This document shows, one piece after another, positions 13,471 to 22,667 of a DNA stretch of 64,000 nucleotides. Under the pieces are notes generated by a model. The model was not told the origin of the DNA, did no database searches, and worked only from the letters and a program-made list of their open reading frames with translations. Position 1 is the first letter of the stretch, and each line of letters starts with the position of its first letter. The DNA comes from Halococcoides cellulosivorans. GTDB lineage: Archaea; Halobacteriota; Halobacteria; Halobacteriales; Haloarculaceae. The stretch covers positions 434,001 to 498,000 of the forward strand of contig NZ_CP028858.1 of assembly GCF_003058365.1 (NCBI RefSeq), in the 5' to 3' direction. A program made the position numbers and the translations under genes.

Positions 13471-16400
13471 ATGGACGAGGCGTACTTCGAACGGCTCGAA
13501 TCCGAACTCGACGACGCTAGAGCCGTCGCGGAACGCGCCCGCGAGCGCGGCGCGGACCCGAAACCCGAGGTGGAGATTCCGACCGCGCGCGACATGGCCG
13601 ACCGCGTCGAGAGTATTCTCGGTATCGAGGGCGTCGCGGAACGCGTCCGCGACCTCGAAGACGACTACTCCCGCGAAGAGGCCGCACTGGAACTGGTGGG
13701 CGATTTCGTCGACGGCACGGTCGGATCGTTCGACTCGCGGACGGCGAAAATCGAGGGTGCGGTCCGCACCGCGGTCGCGCTGTTGACCGAGGGCGTCGTC
13801 GCCGCGCCGATCGAGGGGATCGATCGCGTCGAGATCCAGACGAACGACGACGGGACGGAGTTCGTCAGCGTCGCGTACGCCGGCCCGATCCGCTCGGCGG
13901 GCGGCACTGCCCAGGCTCTCTCCGTGCTGGTCGCGGACTACGCCCGGACGCTGCTCGATATCGACCGGTACAAGCCCCGTGACGACGAGGTGCAGCGCTA
14001 CGTCGAGGAGGTGGGCCTGTACGACGACGAGACGGGCCTGCAGTACAGTCCGAAAGACGCCGAGAGCGAGTTCATTGCCGAGCACCTCCCGATCATGCTC
14101 ACCGGCGAGGCCACCGGCGACGAGGAAGTCTCGGGGTATCGCGACCTCGAACGCGTGGACACCAACGCCTCTCGCGGGGGGATGTGTCTGGTCTTCGCGG
14201 AGGGGATCGCGCTGAAAGCGCCGAAGATCCAGCGGTACACCCGTGAGCTCGACGAGGTCGACTGGCCGTGGCTCCAGGATCTGATCGACGGGAGCTTTCA
14301 CGACGGGAGCGACGACGGCGAGGAAAGCGACGGCGAATCGAACGCGGACGATGGCGACGTCGACACGGGGCCACCGCGGCCCGAGCCCTCGAAGAAGTAC
14401 CTTCGCGATCTGATCGCCGGGCGACCGGTGTTCGGCCACCCCTCCAGTCCTGGCGGCTTTCGCCTGCGCTACGGGCGCGCCCGGAATCACGGCTTCGCGA
14501 CGGCGGCGGTCCACCCCGCGACGATGGTGCTCGTCGAGGACTTCCTCGCGGCGGGCACGCAGATCAAGACCGAACGCCCGGGCAAGGCCGCCGGCGTCGT
14601 TCCGGTCGATACGATCGAGGGCCCGACCGTCCGCCTGGCGAACGGGTCGGTCCGGCGGATCGACGACGCCGACCGGGCCCGCGAGGTGCGCAACGGCGTC
14701 GAGGCCATCCTGGATCTGGGCGAGTATCTGGTCAACTACGGCGAGTTCGTCGAGAACAACCACCCGCTCGCGCCCGCGGGCTACACCGTCGAGTGGTGGC
14801 GCGAGGAGTTCGCCGCCGGCGGTGGCGACCCCGATGCCGTGGCGGACGATCCGTCGGTCGACCTCGCTGATCCCGCGCCCGAGACGGCCATCGAGTGGGC
14901 CGAGTCGACCGGCACGCCGTTGCATCCTCAGTACACCTACTGCTATCACGACCTCGGGGTCGACAGACTCGAACGACTGGCCAGGGCGATCGAGGCGGGC
15001 GATATCGACGAGGAGGGCCGTCTCGTCCTCGATCGCGACGCTGCCGAGATTTTGGAGGTCTTGCTGATCGAGCACGACCAGCACGACGATCGGGTGACCG
15101 TCGACACGTGGCGACCCTTCGTCCGCACGCTCGGATTCGACGATGCGCTGACTCGCGACTGGACGGTCGCGGAGCTTCCGGACGCGGCCCGGACCTACGA
15201 CGACGGCGAGAACGCGATCCGCGCGGTCGAGGCCGTCGCGCCGTTCCCCGTCCGCGAGCGCGCGCCGACACGCATCGGCGCACGGATGGGCCGCCCCGAG
15301 AAATCCGAAGAGCGCGAACTCTCGCCGGCGGTCCACACGCTGTTTCCGATCGGTGAGGCCGGCGGGAACCAGCGGAACGTGACCGACGCCGCCGGTGCGG
15401 ACCGGCCGGAGGGCCAGGGTCGAGTCTCGCTGGAACTCGCCCGGCGCGTCTGTGGATCGTGTGGCACCGAGACGACCAGGGCGCGTTGCCCCGACTGTGG
15501 TGATCGAACGACGGTCGACTATCGCTGTCCGGACTGCGAGCGGTCGATCGAGCCAGACGAGGCCGGGCGGGCGACGTGCGATCGCTGCGAGATGGAGGCC
15601 GAACCGACCCAACTGACGACGCTGTCGGTCCACGACCGGTATCACGAGGCGCTCGACCGTGTCGGAGAGCGCGAGACGGCGTTCGACATTCTGAAGGGCG
15701 TCAAGGGGCTGTCCTCTGCGACGAAGACGCCCGAACCCTTAGAGAAGGGCATTCTCCGGGCCAAACACGACGTCAGCGCGTTCAAAGACGGGACGATCCG
15801 CTACGACATGACCGACCTGCCGGTGACGGCCGTCCGGCCCTCGGAACTCGACGTCGACGTCCAGCAGGTTCGCGCGCTGGGCTACGAGACCGACATTCAC
15901 GGCGACCCGCTGCGTCACGACGACCAGTTGATCGAACTGCGCACCCAGGACATCGTCCTCTCGGACGGGGCGGCCGACCACCTCCTCCAGACCGCGGCGT
16001 TCGTCGACGACCTCTTAGAGCAGTACTACGAGATGGACCCGTACTACGAGTTTTCCGAGCGGGCGGATCTCGTCGGGGAGTTGGTCTTCGGGATGGCCCC
16101 GCACACCTCCGCGGCGGTCGTCGGGCGGGTGATCGGCTTCACCTCGGCGGCGGTCGGGTACGCGCATCCGTACTTTCACGCCGCGAAACGGCGGAACTGC
16201 TTCCACCCGGAGACGACGGTCACGATCTGTGAGGGCGGCGAGACGGTGCACCGATCGATCAGTCGCGTCGTCGAATCGCGACTCGATGATCCCAGGACGG
16301 ACGACTTCGGTGCGAAAGTAACAGATCTCGACGGCGACCTGTCTGTTCCGAGTCTCGCGGACGACGGAACGCCGACGACGCGACCGGTGACGGCCGTGGC

Positions 16401-17496
16401 GAAACATCCCGCACCGGACCATCTCGTGACCGTCGAGACGGCCGCGGGCCGATCGCTGACGGTCACGCCCGACCACGCGATGGTTCGCGTGGCGGACGGC
16501 GATTTCGACCGCGTCGCTGCCCACGAACTCCGGGCCGGCGATCGCGTGCCGCTCGCGGTCGGTCCCGACGTCGCGGTGGCCGACTCCGTGTCAGCGGCCG
16601 AGGACAGGCCGGTCCCCGACGGTGGTTCGGTTCCGACCACCCGTGTGACCGAAACGTCCATCGTCGCGAGCGACGTCGAGGCGACCTACTCACTGACCGT
16701 CGCGGACACCCACCGAATGGTTGCCAATGGCCTTCACGTCGGACAGTGCGACGGCGACGAGGACTGTGTCATGCTGCTGATGGACGGCCTCTTGAACTTC
16801 AGTCGACAGTTCTTGCCGGACCAGCGGGGCGGCAGGATGGACGCGCCCCTGGTGATGTCCTCGCGGATCGATCCGACCGAGATCGACGACGAGGCCCACA
16901 ACGTCGACGTGATGGATCGCTACCCCCTGGAGTTCTACGAGGCCACCCGCGAGATGGCCGATCCCGCCGACGTCGAGGACATCATGACGATCGCGGAGGA
17001 CCGCCTGGGCACCGATCGCGCGGCGGACTTCGAATTCACGCACGACACCCGCGACATCGCTGCCGGGCCCGATCTCTCCGCGTACAAGACGCTCGGGTCG
17101 ATGGAAGACAAGATGGACGCCCAACTGGAACTGGGGCGGCGGTTGCGCGCGGTCGAGGAGTCCGACGTCGCAGAGCGGATCATCGAGTCACACTTCCTGC
17201 CGGACCTCCACGGCAATCTCCGGGCGTTCTCGCGCCAGGACGTCCGGTGTCTCGACTGCGGCCGGAAGTATCGGCGCGTGCCGCTGACGGGCGTCTGTCG
17301 GGAGTGTGGTGGTGACGTCAACCTCACCGTCCACGAGGGGTCGGTCTCGAAGTACATCGACACCTCGATCCGCGTCGCCGAGGAGTACGGCGCTCGCGAG
17401 TACACCAAACAGCGACTGCGCGTGCTGGAGTGGTCGATCGAGAGTGTCTTCGAGAACGATCACAACAAACAGTCGGGCATCGCGGATTTCATGTAG
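13471..17496 (+). CDS. polC: DNA polymerase D large subunit (DP2) with intein
   Basis: A 1341-residue precursor of the replicative PolD catalytic subunit; without the intein it is 1158 residues, normal for haloarchaea. The N-terminal region (EVEIPTARDMADRVESILG, AYAGPIRSAGGTAQALSV) is typical of DP2. A zinc-finger cluster (CGSCGTETTRARCPDCG, CPDCERSI, CDRCEME) follows mid-protein. The catalytic loop NCDGDEDC is split by the intein after Asn909. A second zinc finger near the end (CLDCGRKYRRVPLTGVCRECG) probably contacts the small subunit or PCNA. Activity requires intein removal. ATG 13471 matches the family start (MDEAYFERLESELDDA) and directly follows a leader ORF. DP1 is not in this window. 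Confidence 0.95.
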   Translation: MDEAYFERLESELDDARAVAERARERGADPKPEVEIPTARDMADRVESILGIEGVAERVRDLEDDYSREEAALELVGDFVDGTVGSFDSRTAKIEGAVRTAVALLTEGVVAAPIEGIDRVEIQTNDDGTEFVSVAYAGPIRSAGGTAQALSVLVADYARTLLDIDRYKPRDDEVQRYVEEVGLYDDETGLQYSPKDAESEFIAEHLPIMLTGEATGDEEVSGYRDLERVDTNASRGGMCLVFAEGIALKAPKIQRYTRELDEVDWPWLQDLIDGSFHDGSDDGEESDGESNADDGDVDTGPPRPEPSKKYLRDLIAGRPVFGHPSSPGGFRLRYGRARNHGFATAAVHPATMVLVEDFLAAGTQIKTERPGKAAGVVPVDTIEGPTVRLANGSVRRIDDADRAREVRNGVEAILDLGEYLVNYGEFVENNHPLAPAGYTVEWWREEFAAGGGDPDAVADDPSVDLADPAPETAIEWAESTGTPLHPQYTYCYHDLGVDRLERLARAIEAGDIDEEGRLVLDRDAAEILEVLLIEHDQHDDRVTVDTWRPFVRTLGFDDALTRDWTVAELPDAARTYDDGENAIRAVEAVAPFPVRERAPTRIGARMGRPEKSEERELSPAVHTLFPIGEAGGNQRNVTDAAGADRPEGQGRVSLELARRVCGSCGTETTRARCPDCGDRTTVDYRCPDCERSIEPDEAGRATCDRCEMEAEPTQLTTLSVHDRYHEALDRVGERETAFDILKGVKGLSSATKTPEPLEKGILRAKHDVSAFKDGTIRYDMTDLPVTAVRPSELDVDVQQVRALGYETDIHGDPLRHDDQLIELRTQDIVLSDGAADHLLQTAAFVDDLLEQYYEMDPYYEFSERADLVGELVFGMAPHTSAAVVGRVIGFTSAAVGYAHPYFHAAKRRNCFHPETTVTICEGGETVHRSISRVVESRLDDPRTDDFGAKVTDLDGDLSVPSLADDGTPTTRPVTAVAKHPAPDHLVTVETAAGRSLTVTPDHAMVRVADGDFDRVAAHELRAGDRVPLAVGPDVAVADSVSAAEDRPVPDGGSVPTTRVTETSIVASDVEATYSLTVADTHRMVANGLHVGQCDGDEDCVMLLMDGLLNFSRQFLPDQRGGRMDAPLVMSSRIDPTEIDDEAHNVDVMDRYPLEFYEATREMADPADVEDIMTIAEDRLGTDRAADFEFTHDTRDIAAGPDLSAYKTLGSMEDKMDAQLELGRRLRAVEESDVAERIIESHFLPDLHGNLRAFSRQDVRCLDCGRKYRRVPLTGVCRECGGDVNLTVHEGSVSKYIDTSIRVAEEYGAREYTKQRLRVLEWSIESVFENDHNKQSGIADFM
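16198..16746 (+). other. Mini-intein in the PolD catalytic loop, C-terminal Gln
   Basis: A 183-residue in-frame insertion (residues 910-1092) with splicing blocks and no room for a homing endonuclease. Block A starts at CFHPETTVTIC, supplying Cys1. Block B contains LTVTPDHAMVR with the TxxH motif. Block F/G is ATYSLTVADTHRMVANGLHVGQ, followed by Cys as the first residue of the C-extein. The last intein residue is Gln, not the usual Asn, and the residue before it is Gly, not His. Splicing rejoins Asn909 to CDGDEDC. The insertion site is the known Pol-II site; the Pyrococcus abyssi intein there is also known to end in Gln. Confidence 0.9.
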
Positions 17497-17537: not shown

Positions 17538-17933
17538 TCAGCCCAACAGCTGGTCGAGTTGTCGGTGGCGCGCGCCCAGATCGACCGCCGGTTCCAACTC
17601 GCGATCGTCCGCGAGGCGTTCGAGTGCGAGCATCGGATCGGACCCTGCCTCCGCGACGGCCTCGAACAGTCGTTCGATCGAGCGGCGGTGGTGGGCCAGC
17701 GAGTCGAGCAACCCGACCGCGAGCGCCATCGGGATCGCCGCCTCGGGGTCGGCGGGGAAGGCCTCGCTGACGCTCTGGAGGTCGCCGTCGGTGGCGGGCC
17801 GCTCCGGTTGGGGCGTCACCGTCAGACAGCGCCGACAGACCGCGACGCCCGATTCGCCCTCCGGGAGGTGGTCGGCGTACGCGTCGGGAATCCCGACGAC
17901 GACCGTCTCGGCGTCACACTGCGGGCACGTCAT
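17538..17933 (-). CDS. DUF6276 family zinc-ribbon protein
   Basis: A 131-residue haloarchaeal protein. The N-terminus holds two Cys pairs (CPQCDAETV and CRRCLTVTP) that should bind one zinc. The rest is helical ([31 protein letters not shown]). Its start lies inside atpD with a 20-nt overlap, so it is co-transcribed with the ATP synthase subunit gene, an association I recall from other haloarchaea. No function is known. Confidence 0.75.
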
Positions 17934-18585
17934 CGCTGGCCTCCCGTTCGGCTTTCTCCTCGCGGTCTTTCTTGTCTTTGATCTTCTTCATGCGGAAGAT
18001 CTCCTCGCGTTCCTGCTCTTCGAGTTTCTGCTCGATGTACGCTTTGTTGTCTTCGAGTTCGGGCAGGAGTTTGAACTCCAGGGCGTTCACCCGGCGCTTG
18101 GTGGTCTCGATCTCTTCGAGGAGTTTCTTCATCGCGGTCTCGACCTCCGCGGCGAGGATGATCTGCTCTAACAGTTCCTCGTAGGCCTCGGCGGTCTCGT
18201 CGATGCGCGCGCTCGTCCCGAGCAGGCCGTACCCTCGGTCTTCGAGGGTCTTGCGGACCTTCGTGGACTCGATCTGGGGGACGACGACGCCCATGATGTT
18301 TTTCGACTGCGTGGAGATCTCGGGGTGCTCTTTGAGTGCGGCGGCCGCGCCGCGCACGGCGATGTCGCCGTCCATCGCGCGCGCCTCGTTGATGCGGTGC
18401 TGGGCGCGGTCGTAGGTGTCCTCCAGATCGGCCCGGACGTCCTGGGCCTGATCGAGGATGTCCATGAACTCCATGATGAGGCCGTCGCGTTTCTTCTCCA
18501 GCGTGTCGTGGCCACGCTCGGAGAGTTCGATGCGATCCTCGATCGCCATGAGATTTTTGCGCGTGGGCTTGACGTCCTCGGCCAT
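17914..18585 (-). CDS. atpD: A-type ATP synthase subunit D
   Basis: A 223-residue central-stalk (rotor) subunit of the A1Ao ATP synthase. It forms a long two-helix coiled coil inserted in the A3B3 head: N-terminal [20 protein letters not shown]-terminal [16 protein letters not shown], with an Ala/Gly/Val-rich middle. The charged C-terminal tail ([17 protein letters not shown]) is typical of halophilic homologues. A TATA-like gttaatta at 18609-18616 (minus strand) is centred 27 nt before the ATG, so the gene has its own leaderless promoter. The other ATP synthase subunits are not in the window; upstream lie the hairpin cluster and the AT-rich island. Confidence 0.93.
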
Positions 18586-18608
18586 TGCGGGCGGCTACGG
18601 ACGGTGGG

Positions 18609-18616
18609 TAATTAAC
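18609..18616 (-). promoter_or_regulatory. TATA box of atpD
   Basis: On the minus strand the sequence reads gttaatta, centred 27 nt before the atpD ATG. It indicates that atpD is transcribed independently of anything upstream. Confidence 0.55.
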
Positions 18617-18714
18617 CTCCGTGGGTTTGGGACGGATTGGGCTCCGTCAGAGTATACCAGATCCCATCGTCATTGAGTGGGTAGGTTTCCGAACGCCCCC
18701 GTCGCGCTCGGCGG

Positions 18715-18930
18715 CTGCGAACTGCTCACGGGTCGCTCCGCTCGCGGTTTCACCGCTCGCAATCGAGACACTCACTCTGTTCACGGGTCGCTTTGCTCCC
18801 CGTTCACACCGAGACGCTCACTACGTTCGCGTCTCGCACCGTTCACGTCTCGCCCCGCTCCCCGTTCGCTTCCGTGGCCTCGCTCCGCTCGGCCACGCTC
18901 CCCCTGCGCGCGCCTTCGGCGTGCTGAGGG
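18715..18930. repeat. Cluster of GC-rich imperfect palindromes
   Basis: Several related short units carry the pattern gctc(c/a)nnn(c/g)gctcg. Two near-perfect inverted repeats are 18811-18835 (GAGACG arms pairing with CGTCTC) and 18874-18896 (GTGGCC arms pairing with GGCCAC). Similar units are common in haloarchaeal intergenic DNA. They could form RNA hairpins on either strand and may act as terminators or as a landing zone for insertions. The cluster abuts the AT-rich island. Confidence 0.55.
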
Positions 18931-19047
18931 TTCTCGCTCGCCGACCGCTCGGGTCCGTTCGAAGTCCGGCCTAACACAAGTTGGAGGATTATAAATATTT
19001 GATATATTTATTGGGGTCTCGGCGAGCGTGTATTCTCCTCTAATATA

Positions 19048-20703
19048 TTATGGGGCGGCCATGTCAAGGTCAAAAGACTGGTCTCCGCGAACTGAGTACA
19101 CGAATAATAGGCAATCACCGTCGGCCATCTGCAACGATGATAGTTGAATAGAATCGTGATGGCCATTCAAGCCGCGCACGTTATCTCGTATCCGCATATT
19201 CCTCTCTGAATCCCACTTACTCCGGCTCAATGGTCGAATCCTTTGCTCATCTTCTTCAACTCCCACCAATACCAGCTTTGAGTCCGACTGGATTTCCTCA
19301 GATATTTTTTCGGCAGCCTCTTGATCATCTTCTATATTTGCCAGCCAATCGCGGGATTTCAATTCCATTAGGCCATCCTCATCACGCAATACCATTCCAT
19401 CAGATGAGAGTTCGTCCTCAAATAAATATGTTATTTGTTCGAAAAAATGTGAAATGGGGCTCTCACACCATTCGGAAAGAGTGTGGAAAATTACACAGTA
19501 AATGATGTTGGAGAGGTGCTCGCCGGTACAAGCCTCTTGAGTGATTTCGTAGAGTTGATTGATTTTTTCATCGTCAATGTCAAGTGGATTGTGGATTTTA
19601 AGTGGTCCAACTTGCACAGGTTCCTCAACGAAATCGTTCCCCAGGTGATGGAGGCGCACAGTCTCGCCCGAGCGTAGATTCTTTGAGAGTTGAAGTCGCC
19701 ACTTTACCGATAGGTCTATATTCTTATCTGCAAACACTACCTTAAAATCCGAATCACTACCCTTAACTAGTTTTGTTGGGCCATTTGGCCCACCAGTTGT
19801 CACTTTATCCTCATGGTCCACTACGGTGGTCGTAAGTGGGGTCATAGACCCAGCTAGTGTTGAATATTGATTCTTGAGCGTATTGAGGTCATAATAGAGG
19901 GCATAGAATTGTTGAAGGAACTCGTCAACTGTTTCGTAGCGTCTACGCCCCATTTTAATATGGTTCACTGGATATTGGTCATTCGGTGTTTTGAGAATCC
20001 CCGTGGAGAGTTCATAATCATCTCCTGCCATGAATTTTTGTTCGAACTCGCTTTGCTCAAATTCGAACCGTGCTGTTGATCCGTCAATCTGTGTGAATAT
20101 TTTTATGTCGCCAGCCTCCTCGTAAGCGATTTCTTTCGGATCTAGCCCAAGGAATTCGGAGAAAGATTTGGACAAACTTCGCTCAAACTGCAGTACTTCA
20201 ATACCATTCCCGGTTATGTGGAACCGTGAGTATTTGTCAACATTGTCGGTGTCTAGCAGTCGCTCAAGCACCTCGGCGTCTTTTGTTATCGTCATTTCTT
20301 CTGAGTCTGTGTGGCAGAGAATTAGGGAATCGTCGTAGAGGATGAGGACTGCATACTTTCCTGGTTCACGAGCACGGGTTTTCATACTGTCTCCGAAGTC
20401 ATTTATCAGTGACGTACAGAAGGCTTCATCGTGATCAGGATAGGAGCTTAAAAGTTTGTCAACAAACATTTGTGGGTTGTCATCAATATCCAATTCGTCA
20501 AGAGGATGAGCAGAGGTCTGTCGGTCGAGACCTTCGATAACTTCATATATATTACGAATTCGGTCAGGACTTTCGAGTATCCAGCTTTTTAGATTATCCG
20601 ATTGAATCTCTTTGTAGTAGAAATGAACTGGATTGAATTCTTCTTCAGAGATGTGTTCTTGCTTCATGCTCGCAGTCTTCTTACCAATTAAACAATCCAC
20701 CAT
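19048..20703 (-). CDS. Uncharacterised protein of an AT-rich accessory island
   Basis: A protein of about 551 residues that I cannot assign to a named family. It stands out by low GC, AT-ending codons and ordinary rather than strongly acidic composition, all signs of transfer. The N-terminal 90 residues are helical (NLKSWILESPDRIRNIYEV). A probable beta-rich domain follows (GKYAVLILYDDSLILCH, VLERLLDTDNVDKYSRFHI). The central part includes HIKMGRRRYETVDEFLQQF. The C-terminal 110 residues contain an E-x-K motif (GLMELKSRDWL) and then KLVLVGVEEDEQRI, which resembles the AlbA_2/Schlafen DNA-binding fold or, less likely, a PD-(D/E)XK nuclease. No signal peptide or membrane segment is seen. Start codons at 20703 (ATG) and 20667 (ATG) are both possible. 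There is no partner gene. Confidence 0.7.
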   Translation of the reverse strand: MVDCLIGKKTASMKQEHISEEEFNPVHFYYKEIQSDNLKSWILESPDRIRNIYEVIEGLDRQTSAHPLDELDIDDNPQMFVDKLLSSYPDHDEAFCTSLINDFGDSMKTRAREPGKYAVLILYDDSLILCHTDSEEMTITKDAEVLERLLDTDNVDKYSRFHITGNGIEVLQFERSLSKSFSEFLGLDPKEIAYEEAGDIKIFTQIDGSTARFEFEQSEFEQKFMAGDDYELSTGILKTPNDQYPVNHIKMGRRRYETVDEFLQQFYALYYDLNTLKNQYSTLAGSMTPLTTTVVDHEDKVTTGGPNGPTKLVKGSDSDFKVVFADKNIDLSVKWRLQLSKNLRSGETVRLHHLGNDFVEEPVQVGPLKIHNPLDIDDEKINQLYEITQEACTGEHLSNIIYCVIFHTLSEWCESPISHFFEQITYLFEDELSSDGMVLRDEDGLMELKSRDWLANIEDDQEAAEKISEEIQSDSKLVLVGVEEDEQRIRPLSRSKWDSERNMRIRDNVRGLNGHHDSIQLSSLQMADGDCLLFVYSVRGDQSFDLDMAAP

Positions 20704-20867
20704 CAAAAATGTCTGGGGCCGTCCTCAGTTGTGTGTAGAAATGTATCAAGCGGAGACCTAGTTCCCGCACGTCACTCCGTCGATTCCCGGTGGATCGAAA
20801 AAGCGGGAGGCTTTCATCGTGGACCTACGGTGAGAAATCCCCCTGAATACTTGCAGACACAACCCGC

Positions 20868-22667
20868 CTATTTCCCCCAGAACGGATCGCGCGACCGGTG
20901 CTCGTCGAGATACATCGAGAGGGTCTCGCGCTCGTCGGCGGGCAACTCCTCGCGTAACTCGCCGTCCAGCACTTTCGCGTGCTTTTCGGGAATCTCGACC
21001 CACAGCGTGTCGCCCTCCTCGATCTGTCGCCCGACGGTCGGGCCGTCGATCGACACCGCCGCCCGCTCGCCCGTGCGCAACTCGTCGACGTCCTCGCCCT
21101 CGTCCTGGATCGACTTCAGGTGCCCCACCCGCGTGGGCTCGGAGCCGTCCCAGCGGACGATCGACTCGCCGCGGCGGAGCGTTCCACCGCGCACCTCGAC
21201 GCCGACGACGGCGGGGTCGGACTGGCGGAACGTGTGATCGTCGAGGATCTGGAACCGCGCCGGACGCGTGATGTTCTCCATGATCTGTTCTTGCTGGGCC
21301 TCCTGAATGCTCTCGACGTACTCCTCGTACTCTTCGATCAGCCGGTAGATCACGTCGTGTTCGAACAGATCGATGTTGCGATCGGCGGCCATCTGGCGCG
21401 AATCGTCGAGGACGTCGACCCCGAAGGCCAGGATCGAGCGATGCTCGGCCTCGTCGGCGGTGTCGGCGACGTGGACGTCACGCGGCGCGACGTCGCCGAC
21501 TTCGGCGTGGACGATCGGAATCTCCGCTTCTTCGAGACTGCCCGCGAGCGCTTCGAGCGAGCCCAGCGTGTCGGCTTTGATGACGACGCCGTGATCGGCC
21601 GTCTCGACGGCGACGCTCTGGAGTTCTTCGCGCACCTCGGCGGTCACCGCCTCGACGGAGCGATCGCCGACGACGCGGATCGGCGCGCCCGCCATCGCGT
21701 CGTCCAGCTCCGGCGCGGCGATCTTCACGCCGTCGGCGGCGACGACGCGATCGACCGTCTCGAAGGCGTCGTCGCTTCTGATCTCCGCGAGCGGGCGGGG
21801 CTTCAACAGCGCGCGCACCTCGGTGACGATCGGGGCGTTCGCGGCCCCGACGACGATCCGATCGCCCGCGTCGATCCGGCCGTCGTAGATCACGGCGTCG
21901 AGTGTCGTGCCAAAGCCCTGCTGGTCGGTCACTTCCAGCACGGTCCCCGCGGCGGGGCCCGTCGTATCGACGGCCATCGCCTCCCGAAGATATCGCTGTG
22001 AGAGGCCCATGAGCACGGCCAACAGGTCGGGCATGCCCTCGCCGGTCTCCGCGCTGCAGGGCACGACCCCGACGTTGGCTTTGAAATCCGAGACGCGCCA
22101 GTAGAAGTCGGCGGTGAACCCAGCGTCGGAGAGGTCACCGATGATCTCGTACAGCCCTTCCTCGACGTCCGAGCGCACGCGATCGGTCTGGGCGTCCAGA
22201 CGACCCTGGATCGGCGCGTTGGGCTCGGAGCGCCACCCACCGACGGCGTCGACTTTGTTCGCGGCGACGACGAAGGGGGTCTCCGTGCGCGCGAGGATGT
22301 CGATCGCCTCCTCGGTCTGTGGCTGGAACCCGTCGGTGACGTCGACGACGAGAATGGCGATGTCGGCTAGCGCGCCCCCGCGCGAGCGCAGCGTCGAAAA
22401 GGAGTGATGGCCCGGCGTGTCGATGAAGAGGAGGCCCGGCAGATCGAAGTCCGTCGGATCGACGAGCCCACCCGCCATCTCTGAGATGACGTCGAGGGGC
22501 ACGTGGGTCGCCCCGATGTGCTGGGTGATCGCGCCGGCCTCGTCGGCGGTCACCGCCGACCCGCGGACGTGATCGAGCAGTGTGGTCTTGCCGTGATCGA
22601 CGTGCCCGAGGACGGCCACGATCGGCGTTCGAAGGTCCGTCCCGTCGGCTGGAGTAGAGTCGGCCAT
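20868..22667 (-). CDS. infB: Translation initiation factor IF-2 (aIF5B)
   Basis: A 599-residue GTPase that promotes ribosomal subunit joining. G1 is [11 protein letters not shown]3 DTPGH and G4 NKVD; SAETGEG fits G5. Domain II follows ([19 protein letters not shown]), then domain III and the C-terminal domain IV ([33 protein letters not shown]), ending in the [16 protein letters not shown] typical of archaeal IF5B. It contains no intein. Met at 22667 gives [20 protein letters not shown], the family start; the longer frame upstream crosses the divergent PRC-barrel promoter and is rejected. Confidence 0.96.

Follow-up and report, generated by a model that had tools for sequence, protein, structure and literature searches.

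What a single gene of unusual composition encodes, and how it came to lie where it does, is the question raised by a short AT-rich island of the archaeon Halococcoides cellulosivorans, found in the 64,000-nucleotide stretch of contig NZ_CP028858.1 (positions 434,001 to 498,000) that we analysed whole and call the window. The encoded protein had no match in Pfam, NCBIfam, PADLOC-DB 2.0.0 or PHROG, which bears out an earlier note, made from the letters alone, that could name no family for it. Among 16 members of its family PADLOC-DB gave one weak Cas9 match (E 0.02), taken as chance, and a sequence search of the PDB with the family profile returned no match. The protein represents an uncatalogued archaeal family that is present in several archaeal lineages. 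We lean, if not strongly, towards a horizontally mobile archaeal defence effector with a C-terminal Schlafen-type ribonuclease (RNase), often placed as a second line behind DNA restriction.

We assign the C-terminal ~110 residues to a Schlafen (AlbA_2-type) domain, though below the PF04326 threshold, on the basis of a fold search, a profile comparison and the conservation of a three-carboxylate site. An AlphaFold2 model was built from eight sequences, a small input that limits its quality. Residues 430-530 mostly had a predicted local distance difference test score (pLDDT) of 74-88, with a mean of 68.5 and a predicted template modelling score (pTM) of 0.44 for the whole model, and Foldseek against the PDB put SLFN13, SLFN11 and SLFN5 chains on top (probability 0.98-1.00 for the best chains, E 0.01-0.06). 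The C-terminal profile of 25 members also resembled haloarchaeal AlbA_2 domains: against five genuine ones hhalign gave a score of 39.2 (probability 88.5%, P 2.7e-6), compared with a maximum of 18.6 for 100 column-shuffled profiles and 14.1 for the reversed profile, and laid RDEDGLMELK over RQESEVLEFK and GVEED over GVDDS. All 25 members, with identities as low as 18%, have E430, E435 and G469; 24 have K437, and 23 have an acid (E or D) at position 472. The nucleolytic activity of rat SLFN13 requires E205, E210 and D248, and SLFN5 has E191, E196 and D233 (PMC5862951, PMC8789055); E430, E435 and E472 of the window protein follow the same order, with the spacing of SLFN5. The strictly spaced motif is present in each of the five AlbA_2 domains and in 14 of the 25 members; the remaining members deviate chiefly through short indels between these residues. 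Of 245 other proteins 2 contain it, one of them itself annotated as AlbA_2-type.

Thus the suggestion of the earlier note that the C-terminal E-x-K and GVxE strand are AlbA_2/Schlafen-like held up. The family shares with the N-terminal nuclease domains of the Schlafens (SLFN13, SLFN11, SLFN5; PF04326) the fold and the order and spacing of E-x4-E-x-K ... G-V-x-[DE]. It differs from them in having a single C-terminal copy, whereas the Schlafens have a two-lobed core, and in the fusion of this domain to a different N-terminal part of ~420 residues. The other option that the note had raised, a PD-(D/E)XK-type DNA nuclease, would suit the E-x-K pair and the association with restriction genes described below, but no such structure stands among the 50 PDB matches listed, where Schlafens are many, and the order and spacing of the acids fit Schlafen; we regard it as very improbable.

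A role in defence is suggested by the association of the family with defence genes. We surveyed 135 proteins within ~5 kb of 24 loci, together with 110 control proteins from regions picked by hand on the same contigs. Type I methyltransferase models matched 10 of the neighbours and none of the controls (p = 0.0025, an optimistic value as some loci are related), and about half of the loci have restriction-modification genes or genes related to bacteriophage exclusion (BREX) nearby. In this sense, of the linkage of homologues to defence islands, proposed earlier as a check, that to restriction genes is real and enriched over control regions. At locus L056 the family gene is flanked by hsdM and hsdS, all on one strand, and hsdR follows farther down; at L019 it lies upstream of hsdM-hsdS-hsdR; type I genes are also near at L021 and L031. 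Large Eco57I/N6-methyltransferase proteins adjoin it at L020, L024, L043 and L029. On a plasmid of Thermococcus profundus its start lies 6 nt past the stop of a methyltransferase gene, and genes for AbiEii and an HKD-SNF2 helicase, both of which also occur at L028, come after it. A DUF499 ATPase, hallmark of BREX-related systems (PMC12839542), is found near the gene at L032, and a GmrSD protein and an AlbA_2-type protein at L045. Additionally, a conserved uncharacterised protein of ~320 residues is divergently encoded just upstream of the family member at L028 (7581-8549, minus strand) and L029 (10822-11784, plus strand), and is a possible partner in this subgroup.

The earlier note had proposed a single-protein defence system. 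A defence role is supported by genomic association; solitary action is only one option, given how many relatives are linked to restriction systems. Under that option the N-terminal part would sense a viral molecule, the Schlafen domain would act, and proximity to restriction genes would reflect shared defence islands. As this would predict, the window gene and roughly half of the loci stand alone or have only recombinases near them, and the partner genes vary by locus (type I, Eco57I type, BREX-related, AbiEii); however, co-expression is suggested by the same-strand insertion between hsdM and hsdS at L056 and, in T. profundus, by the gap of 6 nt to the methyltransferase gene. We hold stand-alone action to be possible, at a rather low probability.

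In the second-line reading that we prefer, the C-terminal domain would be a metal-dependent endoribonuclease with a three-carboxylate site, its likely substrate being tRNA or another structured RNA. The N-terminal ~420 residues would detect infection or keep the nuclease silent, though this role as sensor or silencer is a guess. In many relatives the protein would back up a restriction-modification or BREX-related system, placed like PrrC among hsd genes. Defeat of the restriction system, or detection of viral DNA, would set off RNA cleavage, halting translation and aborting the infection. What the analysis shows is the gene, its family, its horizontal spread, a Schlafen-type fold and site, and a link with restriction genes; RNase activity, substrate, trigger and cell suicide are what we infer. 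The window copy, which has no restriction genes beside it, may act alone or in trans; N6-methyltransferase genes occur elsewhere in its genome, the nearest ~84 kb off.

Two known arrangements are close to this proposal. PrrC is a tRNA nuclease whose gene accompanies hsdMSR; the restriction enzyme keeps it silent until the phage T4 protein Stp disables that enzyme (PMC3710099, PMC2610378). With the L056 member PrrC/EcoprrI shares the location among hsd genes, a placement seen in part at L019, L021 and L031 and not at the window locus, and with the family it shares a predicted RNA cleavage and the proposed second-line logic, but PrrC is an ABC-ATPase with a HEPN nuclease, and none of the 25 family members has such a Pfam match. 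It is conceivable, if doubtful, that a PrrC-like guard arose independently in archaea: a Schlafen-type RNA nuclease would be kept inactive by a restriction enzyme of type I or type IIG until a virus knocks that enzyme out, its N-terminal sensor domain would be new, and its nuclease fold would be the one found in vertebrate antiviral Schlafens. Schlafen-family RNases have also been proposed as backup effectors beside BREX systems, in a paper (PMC12839542) that itself refers to a preprint about bacterial Schlafens and defence against phages. Like the family, these RNases have a Schlafen-type domain and are encoded among prokaryotic defence genes, in some cases with genes for DUF499 or an HKD-SNF2 helicase; in contrast to them, the family carries its Schlafen domain C-terminally behind a long N-terminal part, and its commonest partners are restriction-modification systems. 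Schlafen-type proteins in prokaryotic defence are already known, and what is new here is a variant with a distinct N-terminal part, not a new kind of system.

Several observations weigh against a Schlafen-type RNase tied to restriction. The model is of medium quality by the pLDDT and pTM given above, and the Foldseek E-values are modest. The window protein falls below the PF04326 (SLFN_AlbA_2) threshold with no match, while 4 of the 25 members match beneath the curated threshold (best E 0.005), and the usual AlbA_2 N-x-x-G-G is absent. The third acid is replaced by K in T. profundus and by N in L066. Restriction genes are missing from the surroundings of about half of the loci, that of the window among them, and some of the counted loci are related to each other. 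Finally, SLFN5 keeps the triad and binds tRNA, yet does not cut it (PMC8789055). This last point favours a nucleic-acid-binding regulator, whose AlbA_2-type domain would bind DNA or RNA uncut and control restriction or mobile-element genes, as does the wide annotation of AlbA_2 domains as nucleic-acid-binding; nevertheless, that all three acidic positions are almost fully conserved in so divergent a family speaks for catalysis, and we consider such a regulator unlikely.

The N-terminal part is conserved as well. Within residues 1-420, F91, H119, N142 and G174 are invariant and R100 and K104 are kept in 24 of the 25 members. A separate model of residues 1-262 (pLDDT 72.5) gave no confident fold match. 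A weak Foldseek resemblance of the N-terminal model to KwaB of Kiwa (probability 0.11-0.25) was unsupported by hhalign against 12 haloarchaeal KwaB (PF16162) proteins (score 16.4, P 0.32), and one of the whole model to YejK/NA37 (probability 0.66) was also unsupported (score 19.7, shuffled controls up to 18.0). As a separate observation, the genome has a likely defence island outside the window (G000:C1:2558794-2566166; L106, L113, L116), where two N6-methyltransferase matches are found no more than ~7 kb from a gene for KwaB of Kiwa (PF16162).

How the gene came to this genome is indicated by its distribution. Matches were found in 6 of 59 relatives, the own genome included, and in 18 of 394 Halobacteria genomes; most relatives are without it, which rules out a core gene. 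A second weak match in the own genome lay in an unrelated reading frame and was put down to chance. Searches with P0001 and the A2 profile (our designations) found more archaeal relatives, and a full-length member lies on the T. profundus plasmid. A pattern scan over the genomes of 84,980 prokaryotic species, which misses divergent relatives and was the sole search for bacterial ones, gave haloarchaeal loci only. The closest homologue (79% identity) belongs to a different family of the same order and lies on a 170-kb contig, and genomes of the same family carry homologues at 77%, 45% and 29% identity. The tree rejected a single clade for the four same-family rows (approximately unbiased (AU) test, p 2e-38), and with it vertical descent within the family. 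Patchy presence, replicon context and this tree together show horizontal spread, in agreement with the lone transferred gene of the earlier note. Nonsynonymous divergence (dN) is 0.13-0.15 and synonymous divergence (dS) is saturated; this is an intact, selected gene with horizontal movement. A phage gene was considered and rejected, as there was no phage record and no PHROG match, and viral scans seeded with the Thermococcus and methanogen-like members gave no match. On one contig catalogued as viral (L043, IMGVR_UViG_3300000875_000007) the gene and that of an Eco57I-type restriction-modification protein are arranged as in genome G314 (L024), and the contig may have been misclassified and come from a host or a plasmid.

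The island itself is as sharply bounded as was first noticed, with the changepoint edges given in Table 1: the guanine-cytosine (GC) content falls in the composition profile from about 0.65-0.70 to 0.44. It is 0.438 at 18975-20765 against 0.678 for the whole window (z = -5.4 among 1.8-kb windows), and this is the sole 1.8-kb stretch of the window with GC below 0.55. Exactly one gene is inside, also as first noticed, since one minus-strand open reading frame (ORF) of 1.6 kb fills the island. The ATG at 20667 is the preferred start: in the homologue of L020, which is 77% identical, no start codon is possible before this very position. Of the 540-551 residues first given, the upper value is possible from upstream alternative starts (TTG/ATG at 20706/20703, giving 552/551 residues), and the best-supported start gives 539. 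An ordinary, not halophile-acidic composition had been claimed, and this was mistaken: with an isoelectric point (pI) of 4.52, 19.7% D+E and 9.8% K+R the protein matches in acidity the products of genes nearby, DNA polymerase II large subunit (DP2) and aIF5B, and lysine is the only raised residue (5.2% against 1.7-1.9%). The AT-richness is usual in the family, where haloarchaeal homologue genes have a GC of 0.41-0.58, several of them below their own flanks.

Table 1. Position in the window of the AT-rich island, its gene and the predicted parts of the protein.
Feature	Position	Strand	Basis
AT-rich segment, ~44% GC in 68% GC surroundings, single gene	18971..20875		Composition profile and changepoint fit
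Gene for 539-aa protein, ATG start (alternative starts up to 20706), stop at 19048	19048..20667	-	ORF list, homologue start sites
Conserved N-terminal region, residues 1-262	19882..20667	-	25-member alignment; model pLDDT 72.5
Predicted C-terminal Schlafen (AlbA_2-type) domain, residues 425-530	19078..19395	-	Foldseek to SLFN13/11/5; hhalign to AlbA_2 domains with shuffled controls
E-x4-E-x-K, residues 430-437: first two acids of putative three-carboxylate site, and lysine	19357..19380	-	Conservation; E205/E210 equivalents of rat SLFN13
G-V-E-E, residues 469-472: putative third acid E472	19252..19263	-	Conservation; equivalent to D248 of rat SLFN13, D233 of SLFN5

The neighbours are atpD, for V/A-type ATPase subunit D (17914-18585), and infB, for aIF5B (20868-22661), both on the minus strand. 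Each is universal in the family Haloarculaceae, yet they are adjacent in none of the 38 other family genomes, where the nearest pair is ~24 kb apart. The junction between them, window 18585-20868, is a genus-level synteny breakpoint. Since the two genes are adjacent nowhere else in the family, this is not the conserved core locus that the earlier note had supposed, and no clean empty site is demonstrable. No direct repeats bracketing the island were found. Directly downstream of it, at 18620-18975, there is a GC-rich, repeat-like intergenic stretch of four degenerate 35-nt copies with no evident gene. Farther off, the DP2 gene (13471-17496, plus strand) has, as judged by eye only, an in-frame intein-like insert of ~190 residues, from CFHPETTVTICEGG to HVGQ, before CDGDED.

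The finding adds an uncatalogued archaeal family to the Schlafen-type proteins, a group common to vertebrate antiviral immunity. Abortive defence has been little studied in archaea, and the three predicted catalytic positions, together with a natural operon in which the family gene stands between hsdM and hsdS, make the hypothesis of a restriction-guarded RNase directly testable in these organisms.
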